64,000 nucleotides of DNA from an uncultured Paracoccaceae bacterium (lineage in GTDB: Bacteria; Pseudomonadota; Alphaproteobacteria; Rhodobacterales; Rhodobacteraceae): the NCBI GenBank assembly GCA_947496605.1, contig CANMDF010000002.1, positions 806,001 to 870,000 on the forward strand, given 5' to 3'. The notes under the pieces were generated by a model, which searched no databases, was not told the origin of the DNA, and saw only the letters and a list, made by a program, of their open reading frames with translations. A program made the position numbers and the translations under genes. Shown one piece after another: positions 28,831 through 35,250 of this stretch (within the stretch, counting starts at the first letter, position 1; every line of letters begins with the position of its first letter).

Positions 28831-29475
28831 ATGACCCGCATTCTCTCACTACTTCTCATCTTGTTTTGCACGCCCTTAGCGGCGGCCCCCAATGGCACCA
28901 TCCGCGTCATTGACGCTGACACCATAGATGTGGGCGGAACCCGCGTACGTCTGTTTGGGATCGACGCCCCCGAAATGGGCCAGCCATGCCGGGCGGACGG
29001 ACGCGAATGGGATTGCGGCGCATGGGCGCGCGATGCAGTTAGCAACCGGTTTGAAGGGGCATATGCCAGCTGCATCACCCGCGACACCGACCGTTATGGC
29101 AGGGTCGTCGCGCAATGCAGTGTCGATGGACAAGACATGGGGCAGTTGATCGTCTATTCGGGCATGGCTTGGGCGTTCCGACGCTATTCGGAAACCTACG
29201 ACTTGGACGAAAAATCGGCAGCTGTTGCGGGACGCGGGCTTTGGGCAGTTGAAGTTGAGCTTCCTTCGGATTACCGCGCGGCTCGGTTGGCTACCGACCC
29301 GGCACCGACTGGCGATTGTGCTATCAAAGGCAACATCTCATCCGGTGGACGCATCTATCACGTGCCGGGCCAAGAACATTACAGCCGTACGCGGATCAAT
29401 CCATCCAATGGCGAGCGCTGGTTCTGTTCGCGGGCCGAAGCAGAGGCCGCTGGATGGCGGGCCGCGCGGCGTTAA
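28831..29475 (+). CDS. Secreted thermonuclease (SNase)-family protein with C-terminal sunset-type domain
   Basis: 214 residues with a signal peptide (MTRILSLLLILFCTPLAA-A). The OB-fold nuclease motifs are present: RVIDADTIDVGGTRVRLFGIDAPE (Asp, Arg), GYGR-like TRDTDRYGRVVAQC and the second Arg region. The C-terminal 60 residues (CAIKGNISSGGRIYHVPGQEHY, GERWFCSRAEAEAAGWR) form the short domain often fused to SNases. It probably degrades extracellular or periplasmic DNA/RNA. Start 28831 gives the signal peptide; the ORF-track 5' extension lacks one. Converges with the PccR-type regulator (4-bp overlap). Confidence 0.88.
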   Translation: MTRILSLLLILFCTPLAAAPNGTIRVIDADTIDVGGTRVRLFGIDAPEMGQPCRADGREWDCGAWARDAVSNRFEGAYASCITRDTDRYGRVVAQCSVDGQDMGQLIVYSGMAWAFRRYSETYDLDEKSAAVAGRGLWAVEVELPSDYRAARLATDPAPTGDCAIKGNISSGGRIYHVPGQEHYSRTRINPSNGERWFCSRAEAEAAGWRAARR

Positions 29476-30872
29476 TCCAACTGATAGGGCAGAATACCGC
29501 GGCGATCAGGATCGACGCTCAGCTGGCGTTCAAGCGGAGGCACTGACCTTTGATGGCAATTGCGCCGTTCGCAAATCCGGCATGAAATGCCGATAGGGGC
29601 ATAGGCCTCAGCGGCGCTCAAATCCATGTGATCGGCATACACCAAAGCTGGCGCATGTTTAACTTCACACCCCAATCCAATCGCATAGCGGCGTGTGGGC
29701 ACGTTATAGGCCCCGCCTGATTTGCTAACATCACGGGCAAGGCAGAAATAGCGTGCGCCATCCGGTGTCTCTGCTAATTGGCGCAGGAACTGCCCCGGCA
29801 ATTCAAACGCCTGATGCACGTTCCACAATGGACATGCCCCGCCGTAGCGGGCGAATTGCAGCGTGGTCGCCGAGTGGCGTTTGGTGATCGTGCCAGCCTG
29901 ATCGACCCGGACAAAGAAGAATGGGATGCCTTTGGCGCCAGGGCGCTGCAATGTGGACAGCCTGTGTGCCACTTGTTCAAGCGACGCACCGAAGCGGGCG
30001 GATAGGACCTCGAGATCATGCCGTGTGGCTTGTGCTGCCGAAAGAAAGGCGGCGTAAGGCATCAACGCGGCCCCAGCGAAATAGTTTGCAAGGCCAACTT
30101 TGGCGATACTGCGTGCCTCGTCTGATTGAAAGCGCGCGAGGTCCAAAGTGGCCTCTAACAATGGCTCTTGTGCAATGAGAGCGAGTTGCAGCAACAATTG
30201 AAACGTCTGCGTTGCCCCGTTTGCAAACTGCGAAATCGTAAGTGTTTTGGTTGCCGCATCATAGTGGCGCACATCGACCGCATCACGGAACACTGTCTTA
30301 ATCCCGTGACTGTCCAACATCCGCACGGCTGCATCCGCCATCGCTTCGCCCGGACTGGTGCGGCTGGCAAACCGTTCTGCTGCGCGATCCACCGCATCAA
30401 TGTAGTTGTCACAATAATGAAAGAAGTCGCGCACCTCTTCCCATGGGCTGGGTTGCAGACGGGCGTCTTCGCGGCCCAATGCCTCATCCAATGATGCCAG
30501 CCGTTCGTGGGTCTGACGGTAGGCTGCGTGCAGATCAAGAAAGGCACGCGCAAGGGTAGGCGCGTTGGCGGCAGCCAGTCGCATGTCAGCCAAAGCTGGG
30601 GCAGGACCGGTAAAGACCGGATCGGCCAGCGCTTCACGCATATCGCCGACCAGTCGTGCTTCATCACCTGATTGCAACTCGGTCACGTCAAAGCCGAATT
30701 CCTGCGCAAGACCCAAGACGACCGCCGTAGAGACAGGGCGGTTATTGTTCTCCATCTGGTTGAGGTAGGGCAGCGACACGCCCAGCTTTTCGGCGAACGC
30801 TTTTTGCGTCAGCGAAAGCCGCCCGCGCAATTCGCGCAGCTTTGCGCCAGCATAGAGTTTCTGAATGGCCAT
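29472..30872 (-). CDS. pccR: Short-chain acyl-CoA regulator (ScfR/PccR/RamB family), XRE type
   Basis: 466 residues. An XRE HTH (about 10-62, LRELRGRLSLTQKAFAEKLGVSLPYLNQMENNNRPVS) is followed by a large IrrE-like/DUF2083 region typical of ScfR regulators. The C-terminus has Cys motifs (CPLWNVHQAF; CRICERRNCHQRS). RamB, PrpC regulators and PccR of Rhodobacter sphaeroides belong here and respond to acyl-CoAs to control propionate or acetate genes. Located one gene away from pccB, with TTTGCA-type sites before both genes. The symbol is by inference from location and family. Confidence 0.82.
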   Translation of the reverse strand: MAIQKLYAGAKLRELRGRLSLTQKAFAEKLGVSLPYLNQMENNNRPVSTAVVLGLAQEFGFDVTELQSGDEARLVGDMREALADPVFTGPAPALADMRLAAANAPTLARAFLDLHAAYRQTHERLASLDEALGREDARLQPSPWEEVRDFFHYCDNYIDAVDRAAERFASRTSPGEAMADAAVRMLDSHGIKTVFRDAVDVRHYDAATKTLTISQFANGATQTFQLLLQLALIAQEPLLEATLDLARFQSDEARSIAKVGLANYFAGAALMPYAAFLSAAQATRHDLEVLSARFGASLEQVAHRLSTLQRPGAKGIPFFFVRVDQAGTITKRHSATTLQFARYGGACPLWNVHQAFELPGQFLRQLAETPDGARYFCLARDVSKSGGAYNVPTRRYAIGLGCEVKHAPALVYADHMDLSAAEAYAPIGISCRICERRNCHQRSVPPLERQLSVDPDRRGILPYQLD

Positions 30873-30880
30873 ACCGTACC

Positions 30881-30916
30881 TTTGCAGATTAGCTAAGTCA
30901 CATTAGCTACTGCAAA
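30881..30916. promoter_or_regulatory. Candidate autoregulatory PccR/ScfR operator
   Basis: TTTGCAG at 30881-30887 and CTGCAAA at 30910-30916 face each other as an inverted pair, with direct ATTAGCTA repeats between, only 9-44 bp before the regulator start (minus strand). The TTTGCA core is the same as in the pccB upstream sites and the published TTTGCAAA-type motif of this regulator family. Confidence 0.6.
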
Positions 30917-30923
30917 TTTCGCG

Positions 30924-32135
30924 TCAAGCAATCTGCTTTTCACGCCAGATGACAAACAGGACAGACAAGAACGCGCAGACGGATGTGCTTAGCATAATCA
31001 ACTGCAAAGGAAGCGTCCCTGTTTCGACTGTCAGAATACTGCCCGCAAACTGTGACAAGGCCGCGCCGCCGCCGATCATAATGGCACCACCTAATCCGCT
31101 GGCTGTCCCCGCCAGATGCGGACGCACCGAGATGGACCCGGCCATCACGTTGGGCAGAATGATGCCGTTGCCCAACCCCAAGAAGACGCAAAACCCAAAG
31201 AAGTTAAGCGGATGATTGACGCCTGAAATTGTCAAAATCGCTGAAAGGCCGAGGCCGAACAGGATCACGCAACTTCCGATGATTGCCATCCGGTTGATGC
31301 CTACTTTGACGGAAAACCGCCCCGAAAGGAAATTGCCAGCGGCATAGCCGATTGCCGGCGTGCCAAGTGCGATCCCTGTCCAAAGCGGCGAGAGGCCAAA
31401 GATCTCGGAGGCGACAAAGGATGTCCCGCCTAACAGCGCAAAGAAAGCACCAGATGCGAAAGCCGCACAAAGGACATACCCCCAAAATCGTGGTGAACCT
31501 AAAAGCTCCGGATAGGTCCTGAGTTGGTCGCGAAAGCTGGTGCCTTCGCCTTTGACTGTTTCGCCAAGGTCGAAATAGACCAAGGCCAGTGTTCCAAGTC
31601 CGGCCAGCCCCAAGAATACAAATGTCGCCTGCCAGCCAAAGGCTTGCTCTAATGCGCCACCGATCATCGGGCCGACCATGGGCACCACGGCCATACCCAT
31701 TGTCACATAGCCGATCATCGAAGCGGCCTGCGCCTCTGGCACAATGTCACGCACAATCGCACGTCCTAACGCCATCGAAGTGGCGACGGCGGCTTGTAGG
31801 ATGCGAAAGAATAAGAAGGTCTCAACCGTTGTAGCGAACAAGGTGCCAATAGTTGCCAGGACAAATATGGTCAGCGATCCAAGCACCAGAATGCGCCGGC
31901 CGTAACGGTCAGAAATCGGGCCGATAAAGACTTGTAACAGGGCAGTCGTGGCTAAATAGCCTGACAATGCGATCTGCATGATGGCATATTCTGTATCGAA
32001 ATAGATTGTCATCGCGGAAAGCGACGGCAAGAAAACAGACATGCTAAGCGCGGACATACCGGTGATCAGCACGAGTGTTAGAATATGTGGTGGTGTGGTG
32101 CGATCCAGAAACCGGATCGTGGGCAGAGTGGTCAT
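30924..32135 (-). CDS. Bcr/CflA-family multidrug efflux MFS transporter
   Basis: 403 residues, 12 predicted membrane helices. ALSMSVFLPSLSAMTIYFDTEYAIMQIALSGYLATTALLQVFIGPISDRYGRRILVLGS includes the Bcr/CflA signature and MFS motif A (GPISDRYGRR). RILQAAVATSMALGRAIVRD is motif B-like. Drug exporter by family, substrate unknown. It sits between pccR and pccB with its 5' end next to the TTTGCAAA sites, so it might share their control. Confidence 0.9.
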   Translation of the reverse strand: MTTLPTIRFLDRTTPPHILTLVLITGMSALSMSVFLPSLSAMTIYFDTEYAIMQIALSGYLATTALLQVFIGPISDRYGRRILVLGSLTIFVLATIGTLFATTVETFLFFRILQAAVATSMALGRAIVRDIVPEAQAASMIGYVTMGMAVVPMVGPMIGGALEQAFGWQATFVFLGLAGLGTLALVYFDLGETVKGEGTSFRDQLRTYPELLGSPRFWGYVLCAAFASGAFFALLGGTSFVASEIFGLSPLWTGIALGTPAIGYAAGNFLSGRFSVKVGINRMAIIGSCVILFGLGLSAILTISGVNHPLNFFGFCVFLGLGNGIILPNVMAGSISVRPHLAGTASGLGGAIMIGGGAALSQFAGSILTVETGTLPLQLIMLSTSVCAFLSVLFVIWREKQIA

Positions 32136-32182
32136 GGGTTCAGGTGTAGGCCTCTGGCGATGGCTTGTCCATTGTTGTGTTG

Positions 32183-32230
32183 TTTGCAGATTTGCAAATA
32201 CTCAAACGTGCTAAGTCTAAAGTTTGCAAA
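32183..32230. promoter_or_regulatory. Three TTTGCA(G/A)A boxes upstream of pccB: candidate PccR operator
   Basis: TTTGCAGA (32183-32190) abuts TTTGCAAA (32191-32198); a third TTTGCAAA lies at 32223-32230, 32 bp (about three helical turns) further on. TTTGCAAA is the core motif reported for RamB and PccR. The sites lie 73-120 bp before the pccB ATG and 48-95 bp before the divergent MFS start. Confidence 0.72.
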
Positions 32231-32302
32231 TATACCTATTGCCCCTTCACGTCCTCTTTGCCGCGCGGTATCCATGCGCAACAAAACGTGGGGGATGATC
32301 CG

Positions 32303-33832
32303 ATGGACGTATTGCAGGAACTGGAAACACGGCGGCAGGCGGCCCGCATGGGTGGTGGCGAAAAGCGGGTCGCTGCGCAGCACAGCAAGGGCAAGCTGAC
32401 AGCGCGTGAGCGGGTCGAGCTTTTGCTGGACGACGGATCATTTGAAGAGTTTGATATGTTCGTAGCGCACCGCTGTACTGACTTTGGGATGGAGAAAGAC
32501 CGCCCCGCAGGTGATGGCGTCGTGACGGGCTGGGGCACGATCAACGGTCGGCTTGTTTACGTGTTTAGCCAAGACTTTACCGTTATGGGCGGGTCGGTGT
32601 CTGAGACGCACGGCAAGAAGATTTGCAAGATCATGGATATGGCGGTTCAAAATGGTGCGCCAATCATCGGGATCAACGATTCCGGTGGCGCGCGTATTCA
32701 AGAGGGCGTGGCCAGCCTTGCCGCTTATGGCGAAGTGTTCCAGCGCAATATCACAGCCTCAGGTGTTGTGCCGCAGATCAGCCTGATTATGGGGCCGACG
32801 GCGGGTGGTGCTGTTTACTCGCCTGCTATGACAGATTTTATTTTCATGGTGAAAGACAGCTCTTACATGTTTGTCACTGGTCCTGACGTTGTGAAGACGG
32901 TCACAAACGAACAGGTCACGGCTGAGGAATTGGGTGGTGCCAGCACGCACACTAAGAAATCCTCGGTCGCTGATGCGGCCTTTGAGAATGATGTTGAGGC
33001 GATTGCTGAAGTGCGCCGTCTTGTTGATTTTCTGCCGTTGCACAATCGCGACAAAGCCCCTGTGCGTCCGTTCTTTGATGACGTGAACCGGGCAGAAGAA
33101 AGCCTTGATACGCTGGTGCCTGACAATCCTAACATGCCCTACGACATGAAAGAGCTGATCACCAAGTTAGCCGACGAGGGCGATTTCTATGAAATCCAGG
33201 AAGAATTTGCCAAGAACATTTTGACCGGATTTATCCGCCTTGAAGGGTCCACCGTTGGCGTTGTTGCCAATCAACCGATGGTGCTGGCGGGCTGTCTTGA
33301 TATCGATGCCTCGCGCAAAGCCGCGCGTTTTGTTCGCTTTTGCGATGCGTTTGATATTCCGATCCTGTCGTTGGTTGATGTGCCGGGCTTTCTGCCGGGT
33401 ACAAGCCAAGAATATTCAGGTGTGATCAAGCACGGTGCAAAGCTGCTCTATGCTTATGGTGAAGCGACTGTGCCGAAGGTAACAGTCATCACACGTAAGG
33501 CCTATGGTGGCGCTTATGTTGTGATGTCGTCTAAGCATCTGAACGGTGATTTCAACTATGCGTGGCCAACAGCCGAGATCGCGGTGATGGGTGCCAAAGG
33601 TGCGACCGAGATTATCCACCGTGCAGATTTGAACGATCCAGAAAAGCTGGCGCAACATACACAAGATTACGAAGACCGATTTGCGAACCCTTTCGTCGCT
33701 GCTGAAAAGGGCGTGATTGATGAAGTGATCATGCCGCAATCCACGCGCAAGCGTATTTGCCGGGCCTTTGCATCGTTGCGCACAAAGCAGGTGCACACGC
33801 CTTGGAAAAAGCACGACAATATTCCGCTGTGA
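32303..33832 (+). CDS. pccB: Propionyl-CoA carboxylase beta subunit
   Basis: 509 residues, carboxyltransferase half of propionyl-CoA carboxylase, forming (S)-methylmalonyl-CoA. [43 protein letters not shown] is the standard N-terminus and fixes the start at 32303, not the ORF-track 32165. Conserved carboxyltransferase segments: [105 protein letters not shown]. The alpha subunit is encoded 1.5 kb downstream. Likely controlled by PccR. Confidence 0.97.
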
Positions 33833-34088: not shown

Positions 34089-34232
34089 ATGGTACAAGGA
34101 CTTATTGCTTTCACGGTCGCAGCGCTCATGGCGCTTGTTGCCGTATCTGGCAGCCAAGACCGCGCGCCGCTGCAACTTACGTCGGATGCAGCAGCGCAAC
34201 AGCAGGTCAATTACGACCAGCTGGTTTACTAA
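34089..34232 (+). CDS. Small predicted membrane-anchored or secreted protein (47 aa)
   Basis: Translation MVQGLIAFTVAALMALVAVSGSQDRAPLQL, ending NYDQLVY. A hydrophobic N-terminal segment (residues 4-20) is followed by a short polar tail, as in a single-pass or cleaved exported peptide. GAGGCAGG lies upstream of ATG 34089, and a strong hairpin follows its stop, which supports a real gene. No recognisable family. It is one of three small genes placed between pccB and pccA. Confidence 0.6.
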   Translation: MVQGLIAFTVAALMALVAVSGSQDRAPLQLTSDAAAQQQVNYDQLVY

Positions 34233-34243
34233 CGCTCACTGTT

Positions 34244-34285
34244 TTGGACGGGCCCTTGGGTCCGTCCAACCCGCCACCTTTTTGA
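34244..34285 (+). terminator. Terminator-like hairpin after the 47-aa gene
   Basis: TTGGACGG-G-CCC pairs with GGG-T-CCGTCCAA (34244-34269, 12 bp with one G-T, 2-nt loop). CCCGCCACC then precedes a T5 run (34279-34283). The distance from stem to T run is long, so termination may be partial. Confidence 0.6.
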
Positions 34286-34297
34286 TAGGGGGCGCAC

Positions 34298-34666
34298 ATG
34301 GCTAACCTTCCTTACATGGACAAACATCGTGGGTTTCCGGGCCGCTTGCCGGGGACCGATTTTCAATTCGTTTTGCGTCGCGCCAATAAGGACGGTGCGA
34401 CCGCGCTGTCAGAGCGGATCCGTTATCCAGACCGTCGACCCCCTGATAGGCGGGCCGACGCGGGCTTTATGCAGGCCTTGTGGGAACATTTCGGCGAAGA
34501 GCCTTTTGTGCGCGGCAACCTTGATGCAGGGCGGTTGAGTTGGCTTTTTGGGCGTGAAGTGATCCCGGCTGAAGACCCGTTTGATCCGGCAAGTTATGAA
34601 GCGATGTTGCGGATTGATGTGCAGGTTGCGCGACAGACATTCCCCGAAATTCTGGGAGATGGCTAA
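34298..34666 (+). CDS. Conserved-looking hypothetical protein (122 aa)
   Basis: Soluble, basic N-terminal half (FVLRRANKDGATALSERIRYPDRRPPDRRADAG) and acidic C-terminal half (IPAEDPFDPASYEAMLRIDVQVARQ). No motif is recognised. GATAGGGGG gives a strong ribosome-binding site before ATG 34298, and codon use matches its neighbours, so it is likely a real gene. It is located between pccB and pccA; whether it takes part in propionyl-CoA metabolism cannot be told. Confidence 0.65.
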   Translation: MANLPYMDKHRGFPGRLPGTDFQFVLRRANKDGATALSERIRYPDRRPPDRRADAGFMQALWEHFGEEPFVRGNLDAGRLSWLFGREVIPAEDPFDPASYEAMLRIDVQVARQTFPEILGDG

Positions 34667-35009
34667 TGCACGCGTACAAGATGAACATTACATTAACGAA
34701 ACAATGTAAGCGGGAATCCGCTCATGTGCTTATCGATGCGCAACAATGCTATCCAGAACGTACTTCTTTTGCCAAGGTGAGAACTGTAGCAGGGCGCTCC
34801 AGCATTTGTTCTGCTGCAATTTCTCTATACCGTTACCCTTCCCCTGGTCGGCCTGCTTACTCACCAAGCAGGCCGATACCGGATTTCCGCTTGTCAGAGG
34901 CCGATAAGACGGCTGATATTGGATATCATGGTGAATTTGCTATTCATCAACGGGCAGACCGTGCCAATTCTGGGACGGCCGAAATAACAACAACGATAGG
35001 TTCAAGATT
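34667..35009. other. 343-bp gene-free stretch between pccB-side and pccA-side small genes
   Basis: No convincing gene: ORF-track entry 34666-35304 reads through intergenic structures and the lipoprotein gene in another frame. It holds an 11-bp hairpin (34848-34876) with no T run, and an A+T-richer stretch (34920-35000) ahead of the lipoprotein gene that may be its promoter. It could hide a small RNA. Confidence 0.55.
34848..34876. repeat. 11-bp hairpin in the pccB-pccA gap
   Basis: TCGGCCTGCTT (34848-34858) and AAGCAGGCCGA (34866-34876) are exact inverse complements, with a 7-nt loop. No T run occurs on either side, so it is not a typical intrinsic terminator. Confidence 0.65.
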
Positions 35010-35210
35010 ATGCAAAAGACATCAATCATCCTTGCGACAGTGGCAGTATTTGGTTTGGCAGGTTGCCTCGACAATGACGTGGAGCGTGGCGTCGCTGGCG
35101 CAGGTGCCGGCCTTGTGGCTGCAGAGGTGCTGGGCACAGACCGCACTGGTACAGCATTGGCAGGCGCCGCAGCAGGCGTCTTCTGTGACGACGTCGGCGT
35201 TTGCCGCTAA
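35010..35210 (+). CDS. Small lipoprotein with Gly/Ala-zipper segment (66 aa)
   Basis: Signal peptide with lipobox GLAGC (Cys19). The mature part (GVAGAGAGLVAAEVLGTDRTGTALAGAAAGVFCDD) has the Gly-zipper pattern seen in small outer-membrane lipoproteins. A strong terminator 41 bp after the stop separates it from pccA. It shares no visible link to carboxylation and may be an unrelated envelope gene. Confidence 0.78.
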   Translation: MQKTSIILATVAVFGLAGCLDNDVERGVAGAGAGLVAAEVLGTDRTGTALAGAAAGVFCDDVGVCR

Positions 35211-35250
35211 GATAGACAATCGCGCCCTTGCCGGGCGTACAGCTTTTTTG

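Follow-up and report, generated by a model that had tools for sequence, protein, structure and literature searches.

A conserved box operator likely ties a PccR-type ScfR regulator to pccB and to its own promoter in Rhodobacteraceae, with the adjoining Bcr/CflA-type gene probably outside direct control

The PccR regulator of Rhodobacter (Cereibacter) sphaeroides is cited as an activator of propionyl-CoA carboxylase expression which is required for propionate assimilation, and R. capsulatus PccR is likewise cited as being required for growth on propionate (PMC10370305, PMC12632250). In Paracoccus denitrificans, deletion of a putative pccR left growth and pathway reporters unaffected under the conditions tested (PMC10370305). 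Control of pccB by PccR has already been published for R. sphaeroides and the system described here is a further case: in both, an ScfR regulator is found near pccB, we found no functional difference from the R. sphaeroides system as it is cited in these sources, and the operator anatomy given here is one read across the family.

Three other ScfR systems bear comparison. PrpR of Mycobacterium tuberculosis footprints on TTTGCAAA-N-TTTGCgAA (PMC3420887) and resembles our regulator in its domain order after the HTH, in its CX2CX4C cluster motif and in its paired TTTGCAAA-type boxes (PMC3420887, PMC6765138), but PrpR controls the methylcitrate cycle, its boxes are 1 bp apart and it has Phe155 where our protein has Trp144. 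Class 2 RamB of P. denitrificans is an ScfR activator whose target promoter is preceded by two near-identical boxes (PMC10370305); it differs in its 18-bp spacer and its glyoxylate-cycle targets, and our regulator scores under the RamB cut-off. Class 1 RamB of Corynebacterium glutamicum shares the TTTGCAAA core within its site (AA/GAACTTTGCAAA), whereas its sites are asymmetric, 13 bp long and mostly repress acetate metabolism genes (PMC4448153). A literature search for the regulator name PrpQ found nothing relevant.

We analysed a 64,000-nucleotide stretch from an uncultured Paracoccaceae bacterium (the window), the relevant features of which are listed in Table 1. The regulator gene pccR is genetically linked to pccB, with a Bcr/CflA-type MFS gene lying between them; this gene and pccR share a strand and are separated by 51 bp from MFS stop to pccR start. 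Downstream of pccB lie pccA and mcm, and between pccB and pccA (34090-35211) there are three small frames of unknown role, including a short glycine-rich lipoprotein-like frame. The MFS gene adjoins pccB in 45 of 58 family loci, the window included, and pccR and pccB are directly divergent without it in L013, L049 and L057 and also in rhizobia and Azospirillum. Seven loci (L008, L028, L032, L039, L046, L053 and L054) carry an extra stretch of approximately 400-500 bp, apparently a small gene, separating the MFS gene from the pccB operator; in all seven the operator stays at pccB.

Table 1 Features of the pccR-pccB region (positions within the window)
Feature	Position	Strand	Evidence or remark
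pccR, ScfR-family regulator: HTH, IrrE-like domain, ScfR C-terminal domain with CX2CX4C at 431-439	29472..30872	-	PF09856 1.5e-69, PF06114, PF01381
pccR operator start-site element TTTGCAGATTAGCTAA	30881..30896	.	predicted span on the pccR transcript about -3 to +13; R2 best genome match, 30875-30923
pccR operator spacer element, TTTGCAG on the pccR strand (CTGCAAA as listed)	30910..30916	.	between pccR -35 and -10
Bcr/CflA-type MFS gene, between pccR and pccB	30924..32135	-	TIGR00710 213 bits vs cut-off 200.9; judged no consistent PccR target
Predicted MFS promoter: -35 TGGACA (32166-32171), 17-bp spacer, -10 TACACC, ~7 nt from ATG (near-leaderless)	32142..32171	-	pattern seen in 35/47 loci, genomes without boxes included
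pccB operator element A: tandem TTTGCAGA-TTTGCAAA	32183..32198	+	positions -40 and -32 relative to box 0; sequence, conservation, profile
pccB operator element B (box 0) TTTGCAAA	32223..32230	+	sequence, conserved alignment
Predicted pccB -35 TTCACG	32246..32251	+	CTT(TG) block conserved at +22 (counted from box 0); columns C88 T98 T92; putative promoter role
Predicted pccB -10 TATCCA, 17-bp spacer	32269..32274	+	conserved TA at +46 (T82, A84); promoter role inferred
pccB, propionyl-CoA carboxylase carboxyltransferase subunit	32303..33832	+	PF01039 1.4e-197

The first-pass annotation had described a tandem TTTGCAGA-TTTGCAAA and a third TTTGCAAA between pccB and the divergent MFS gene, and we found these boxes with the sequence and at the coordinates it gave. 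The halves of element A occupy 32183-32190 (TTTGCAGA) and 32191-32198 (TTTGCAAA). Relative to the predicted pccB start site, element A lies at about -98 to -83 and element B at about -58 to -51. The third box of element A is absent from the window, and element B there has a degenerate second half (TATAC) compared with the family consensus TTTGCAAATTTGC.

Within the window alone, these words could be read as a functionless chance cluster of A/T-rich sequence: single TTTGCAAA words are not enriched (5 against 2.7 expected, with at least 5 in 15 of 100 shuffles), and three boxes within 48 bp, seen once in the window, arose in 16 of 400 shuffles (4%). Two perfect TTTGCAAA words no more than 40 bp apart were found in 2 of 400 shuffles. 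The chance reading is refuted by family-wide ungapped conservation and by a unique genome-wide profile match, both described below, and we give it practically no credence.

Phylogenetic footprinting, which had been proposed as a check on the boxes, was carried out on the regions upstream of pccB from 80 contigs encoding PccB relatives. With the last TGCAAA box as anchor, the window and 49 loci aligned without gaps in the following layout: TTTGCAnnTTTGCAATTTGC, approximately 20 unconserved bases, TTTGCAAATTTGC, nine bases, CTT(TG), 18 bases and TA(tgnT). A MAFFT alignment was likewise gap-free for the 45 sequences taken further. The boxes are thus kept ungapped in 45 other loci, nearly all from Rhodobacteraceae, with the three boxes of the window corresponding to positions -40, -32 and 0. 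As box 0 was the sole anchor, the conservation seen at -40 to -21, +8 to +12, +22 to +24 and +46/47 is independent of how the loci were selected. The conserved blocks at +22 and +46 are as far apart as a -35 and a -10 would be.

We also built two profiles from which the window was left out. The first (R1), made from the 45 pccB loci, gave a single match in the 3.47-Mb genome, which was the window operator itself (32182-32248, 41.2 bits, E = 3.5e-10; 150 of 1,188 first-look candidates scored). The second (R2), made from 32 pccR promoters of other genomes, ranked the pccR promoter of the window first (E = 0.006) and the pccB operator second (E = 0.012), the next match having an E value of 0.1. 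The remaining R2 matches in the genome (E = 0.1 and above) were judged to be background. A whole-genome pattern search allowing mismatches returned 168 matches and no signal.

The facing TTTGCAG and CTGCAAA sites which had been noted before the regulator gene at 30881-30916 are also present, at 30881-30887 and 30910-30916 respectively. They form part of something larger than two hexamers, an inverted pair of 16-bp units (TTTGCAGATTAGCTAA / TTAGCTA-CTGCAAA). The predicted pccR -35 (TTGACG, 30922-30927) overlaps the MFS stop codon and is followed by a predicted -10 (TAATGT, 30900-30905) and then by TTAGCTAATCTGCAAA across the predicted start. Most pccR orthologues have the same arrangement, with TTTGCAAA inside the spacer between -35 and -10 and GCAAAnCTGCAAAGG near the start site.

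The regulator carries the full ScfR domain set, with the HTH, IrrE-like (PF06114) and ScfR C-terminal (PF09856) domains all scoring above curated cut-offs. It aligns with the M. tuberculosis PrpR structure 6cyy over residues 60-464 (405 residues, E = 4.5e-88) and has the CX2CX4C motif of a predicted [4Fe4S] cluster (C431-C434-C439), with C347 as the fourth cysteine. The bulky aromatic W144 aligns with PrpR F155 (the F of PFEEVRDFF), a position at which R. sphaeroides PccR has Trp (PMC6765138). Against the RamB model NF038139 it scored 437.4 bits, below the equivalog cut-off of 700.

We then compared the distribution of regulator and operator across 101 family genomes, tallied by hand, taking a PccR orthologue as a match with E below 1e-150 and an operator as an R1 match. 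The operator was found in 80 of the 101 genomes, and a PccR orthologue was present in 78 of these 80 compared with 2 of the 21 genomes lacking the operator (Fisher P = 2.6e-16, from counts uncorrected for phylogeny). A conserved TTTGCAAA-type pccB operator therefore co-occurs with the regulator. The exceptions were G028 and G033 (86% and 74% complete), in which the operator but not PccR was detected, and G004 and G078, in which a PccR-like gene (in G078 at E = 6e-159) but not the operator was detected. Two loci with a broken pccR (remnants or split pieces), L025 and L040, have poor operator scores of 12.8 and 10.7 bits; a link between the two conditions is suggestive only.

It could be argued that the boxes are bound not by PccR but by another ScfR paralogue of the RamB or MccR type, since related TTTGC motifs are bound by ScfRs (PMC4448153, PMC6765138) and the window's own genome has a second ScfR-domain gene (G000:C1:21044, L003). 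However, the operator follows the distribution of the PccR orthologue, genomes which hold no ScfR other than distant paralogues do not have it, and this second copy is itself distant and adjoins a response-regulator gene, much as Pden_1785 of Paracoccus is reported to lie next to a two-component system. We regard binding by a paralogue as highly improbable. The data support the regulator being a PccR-type ScfR, with the boxes as its likely operators, one set before pccB and the other within the promoter of its own gene.

The window-blind profiles, the co-occurrence with the PccR orthologue and the promoter layout together make the PccR-pccB part of the first-pass reading well supported at the level of sequence comparison. 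At pccB the boxes lie upstream of the -35, which is the layout expected of an activator. At pccR they lie in the spacer between -35 and -10 and over the start site, a layout indicating autorepression, most likely through blocking of RNA polymerase. It should be noted that ScfRs can also act as repressors, as Corynebacterium RamB does at most of its targets (PMC4448153), and PccR might accordingly be a repressor of pccB when no ligand is present, and not an activator. This is improbable, given that the pccB boxes do not cover the promoter and that the citing literature describes an activator role for R. sphaeroides PccR (PMC10370305).

It is very likely that the boxes form a PccR operator in a two-promoter circuit which activates pccB and autorepresses pccR, with the MFS gene probably outside it; binding, ligand and direction of regulation are inferred. 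PccR would act as a short-chain acyl-CoA-sensing ScfR regulator, binding at pccB to two groups of TTTGCAAA-type half-sites at 8-bp spacing, which lie directly before the -35, such that a build-up of propionyl-CoA (or a related CoA ester) would lead it to activate the propionyl-CoA carboxylase gene. At its own gene, binding of PccR to the boxes would most likely keep out RNA polymerase, an autorepression which is read from the layout alone. The MFS gene would be served by its own promoter and most likely lies outside direct PccR control.

The first-pass annotation had proposed that the regulator controls itself, pccB and possibly the MFS exporter. Control of itself and of pccB is supported by the footprint, the profiles and the co-occurrence, but the exporter does not follow, owing to its variable spacing from the boxes and its own promoter. 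A pattern of the form TRGACW-N15-18-TA no more than 45 bp from the MFS ATG, picked post hoc, was found in 35 of 47 loci compared with a mean of 0.11 and a maximum of 2 in shuffles. The promoter is also present in L048, L050, L052 and L060, all of which lack both the boxes and a PccR orthologue. Across the 38 loci in which an MFS gene is present and the last box is perfect, this box lies 74-87 bp from pccB in 33 (MAD 1-2 bp). The distance from box to MFS gene had a MAD of 22, or of 14.5 (range 80-233 bp) once loci of 250 bp or more were left out, exceeded 500 bp in some loci and showed no helical phasing across the 38. The operator thus has no fixed position relative to the MFS promoter.

The alternative, that the boxes are a shared bidirectional operator which also controls the divergent MFS gene and so links the exporter to propionate physiology, draws on the frequent pairing of this gene with pccB and on the location of element A, which in the window genome lies approximately 11 bp ahead of the predicted MFS -35. 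We consider it unlikely, because the distance between boxes and gene ranges from 80 to more than 500 bp without a helical phase, some loci have an insert between them, a 25-bp difference from the window is seen even in the close relatives L004 and L006, and the promoter is retained in genomes that have neither boxes nor PccR. The fixed distance to pccB, the variable distance to the MFS gene and the persistence of its promoter without boxes indicate that the gene is tied to pccB by position and not by the PccR switch. The exporter is therefore probably not under direct PccR control, although the boxes may have a species-specific effect on it in the window genome, where element A is so close to its -35. 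Beyond the conserved position beside pccB we found nothing tying the exporter to propionate, and no literature was found which pairs Bcr/CflA with propionyl-CoA carboxylase. As a separate observation, a conserved near-leaderless promoter (TGGACA-N17-TA, approximately 7 nt from the ATG) was noted in the window and in the MFS-type loci among L004-L079, and the Bcr/CflA-type gene to which it belongs keeps its place next to pccB in the majority of Rhodobacteraceae loci.

In some other genera the operator also stands before other genes. Second strong R1 matches were found upstream of a gene for a predicted propionate-CoA ligase (prpE) in L153 (G003:C1:2568996) and L154 (G069:C182:8366), with the same spacing to the -35 and -10 as at pccB; the best NCBIfam models for these ligases were NF007815 and TIGR02316, at approximately 680-720 bits and under the curated cut-offs of 955 and 827. 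A further second strong R1 match precedes a BioY-family biotin transporter gene (PF02632) in G083 (L155, G083:C12:89531), biotin being the cofactor of propionyl-CoA carboxylase, and a weaker one lies ahead of a chemoreceptor gene in G087. In the window's own genome the boxes are absent from the region upstream of prpE (G000:C4:132156, 78% identical to that of L153), the only nearby TTTGCAAA being approximately 300 bp upstream, within an apparent preceding gene.

We tentatively suggest, as a possibility that is less likely than not, that the two-element operator is a movable activation module (at pccB, at the ligase gene in G003 and G069 and at bioY in G083) through which PccR coordinates propionate activation, carboxylation and biotin supply, and that the pccB-adjacent Bcr/CflA transporter may, outside PccR control, serve to export a propionate-related compound.

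These results map the operators of the main propionate switch in a family of marine and soil bacteria and separate the supported targets (pccB and pccR) from an unsupported one (the exporter). They also lead to the predictions that the same boxes would have opposite effects at two promoters and that prpE and bioY would be additional targets in some genera.
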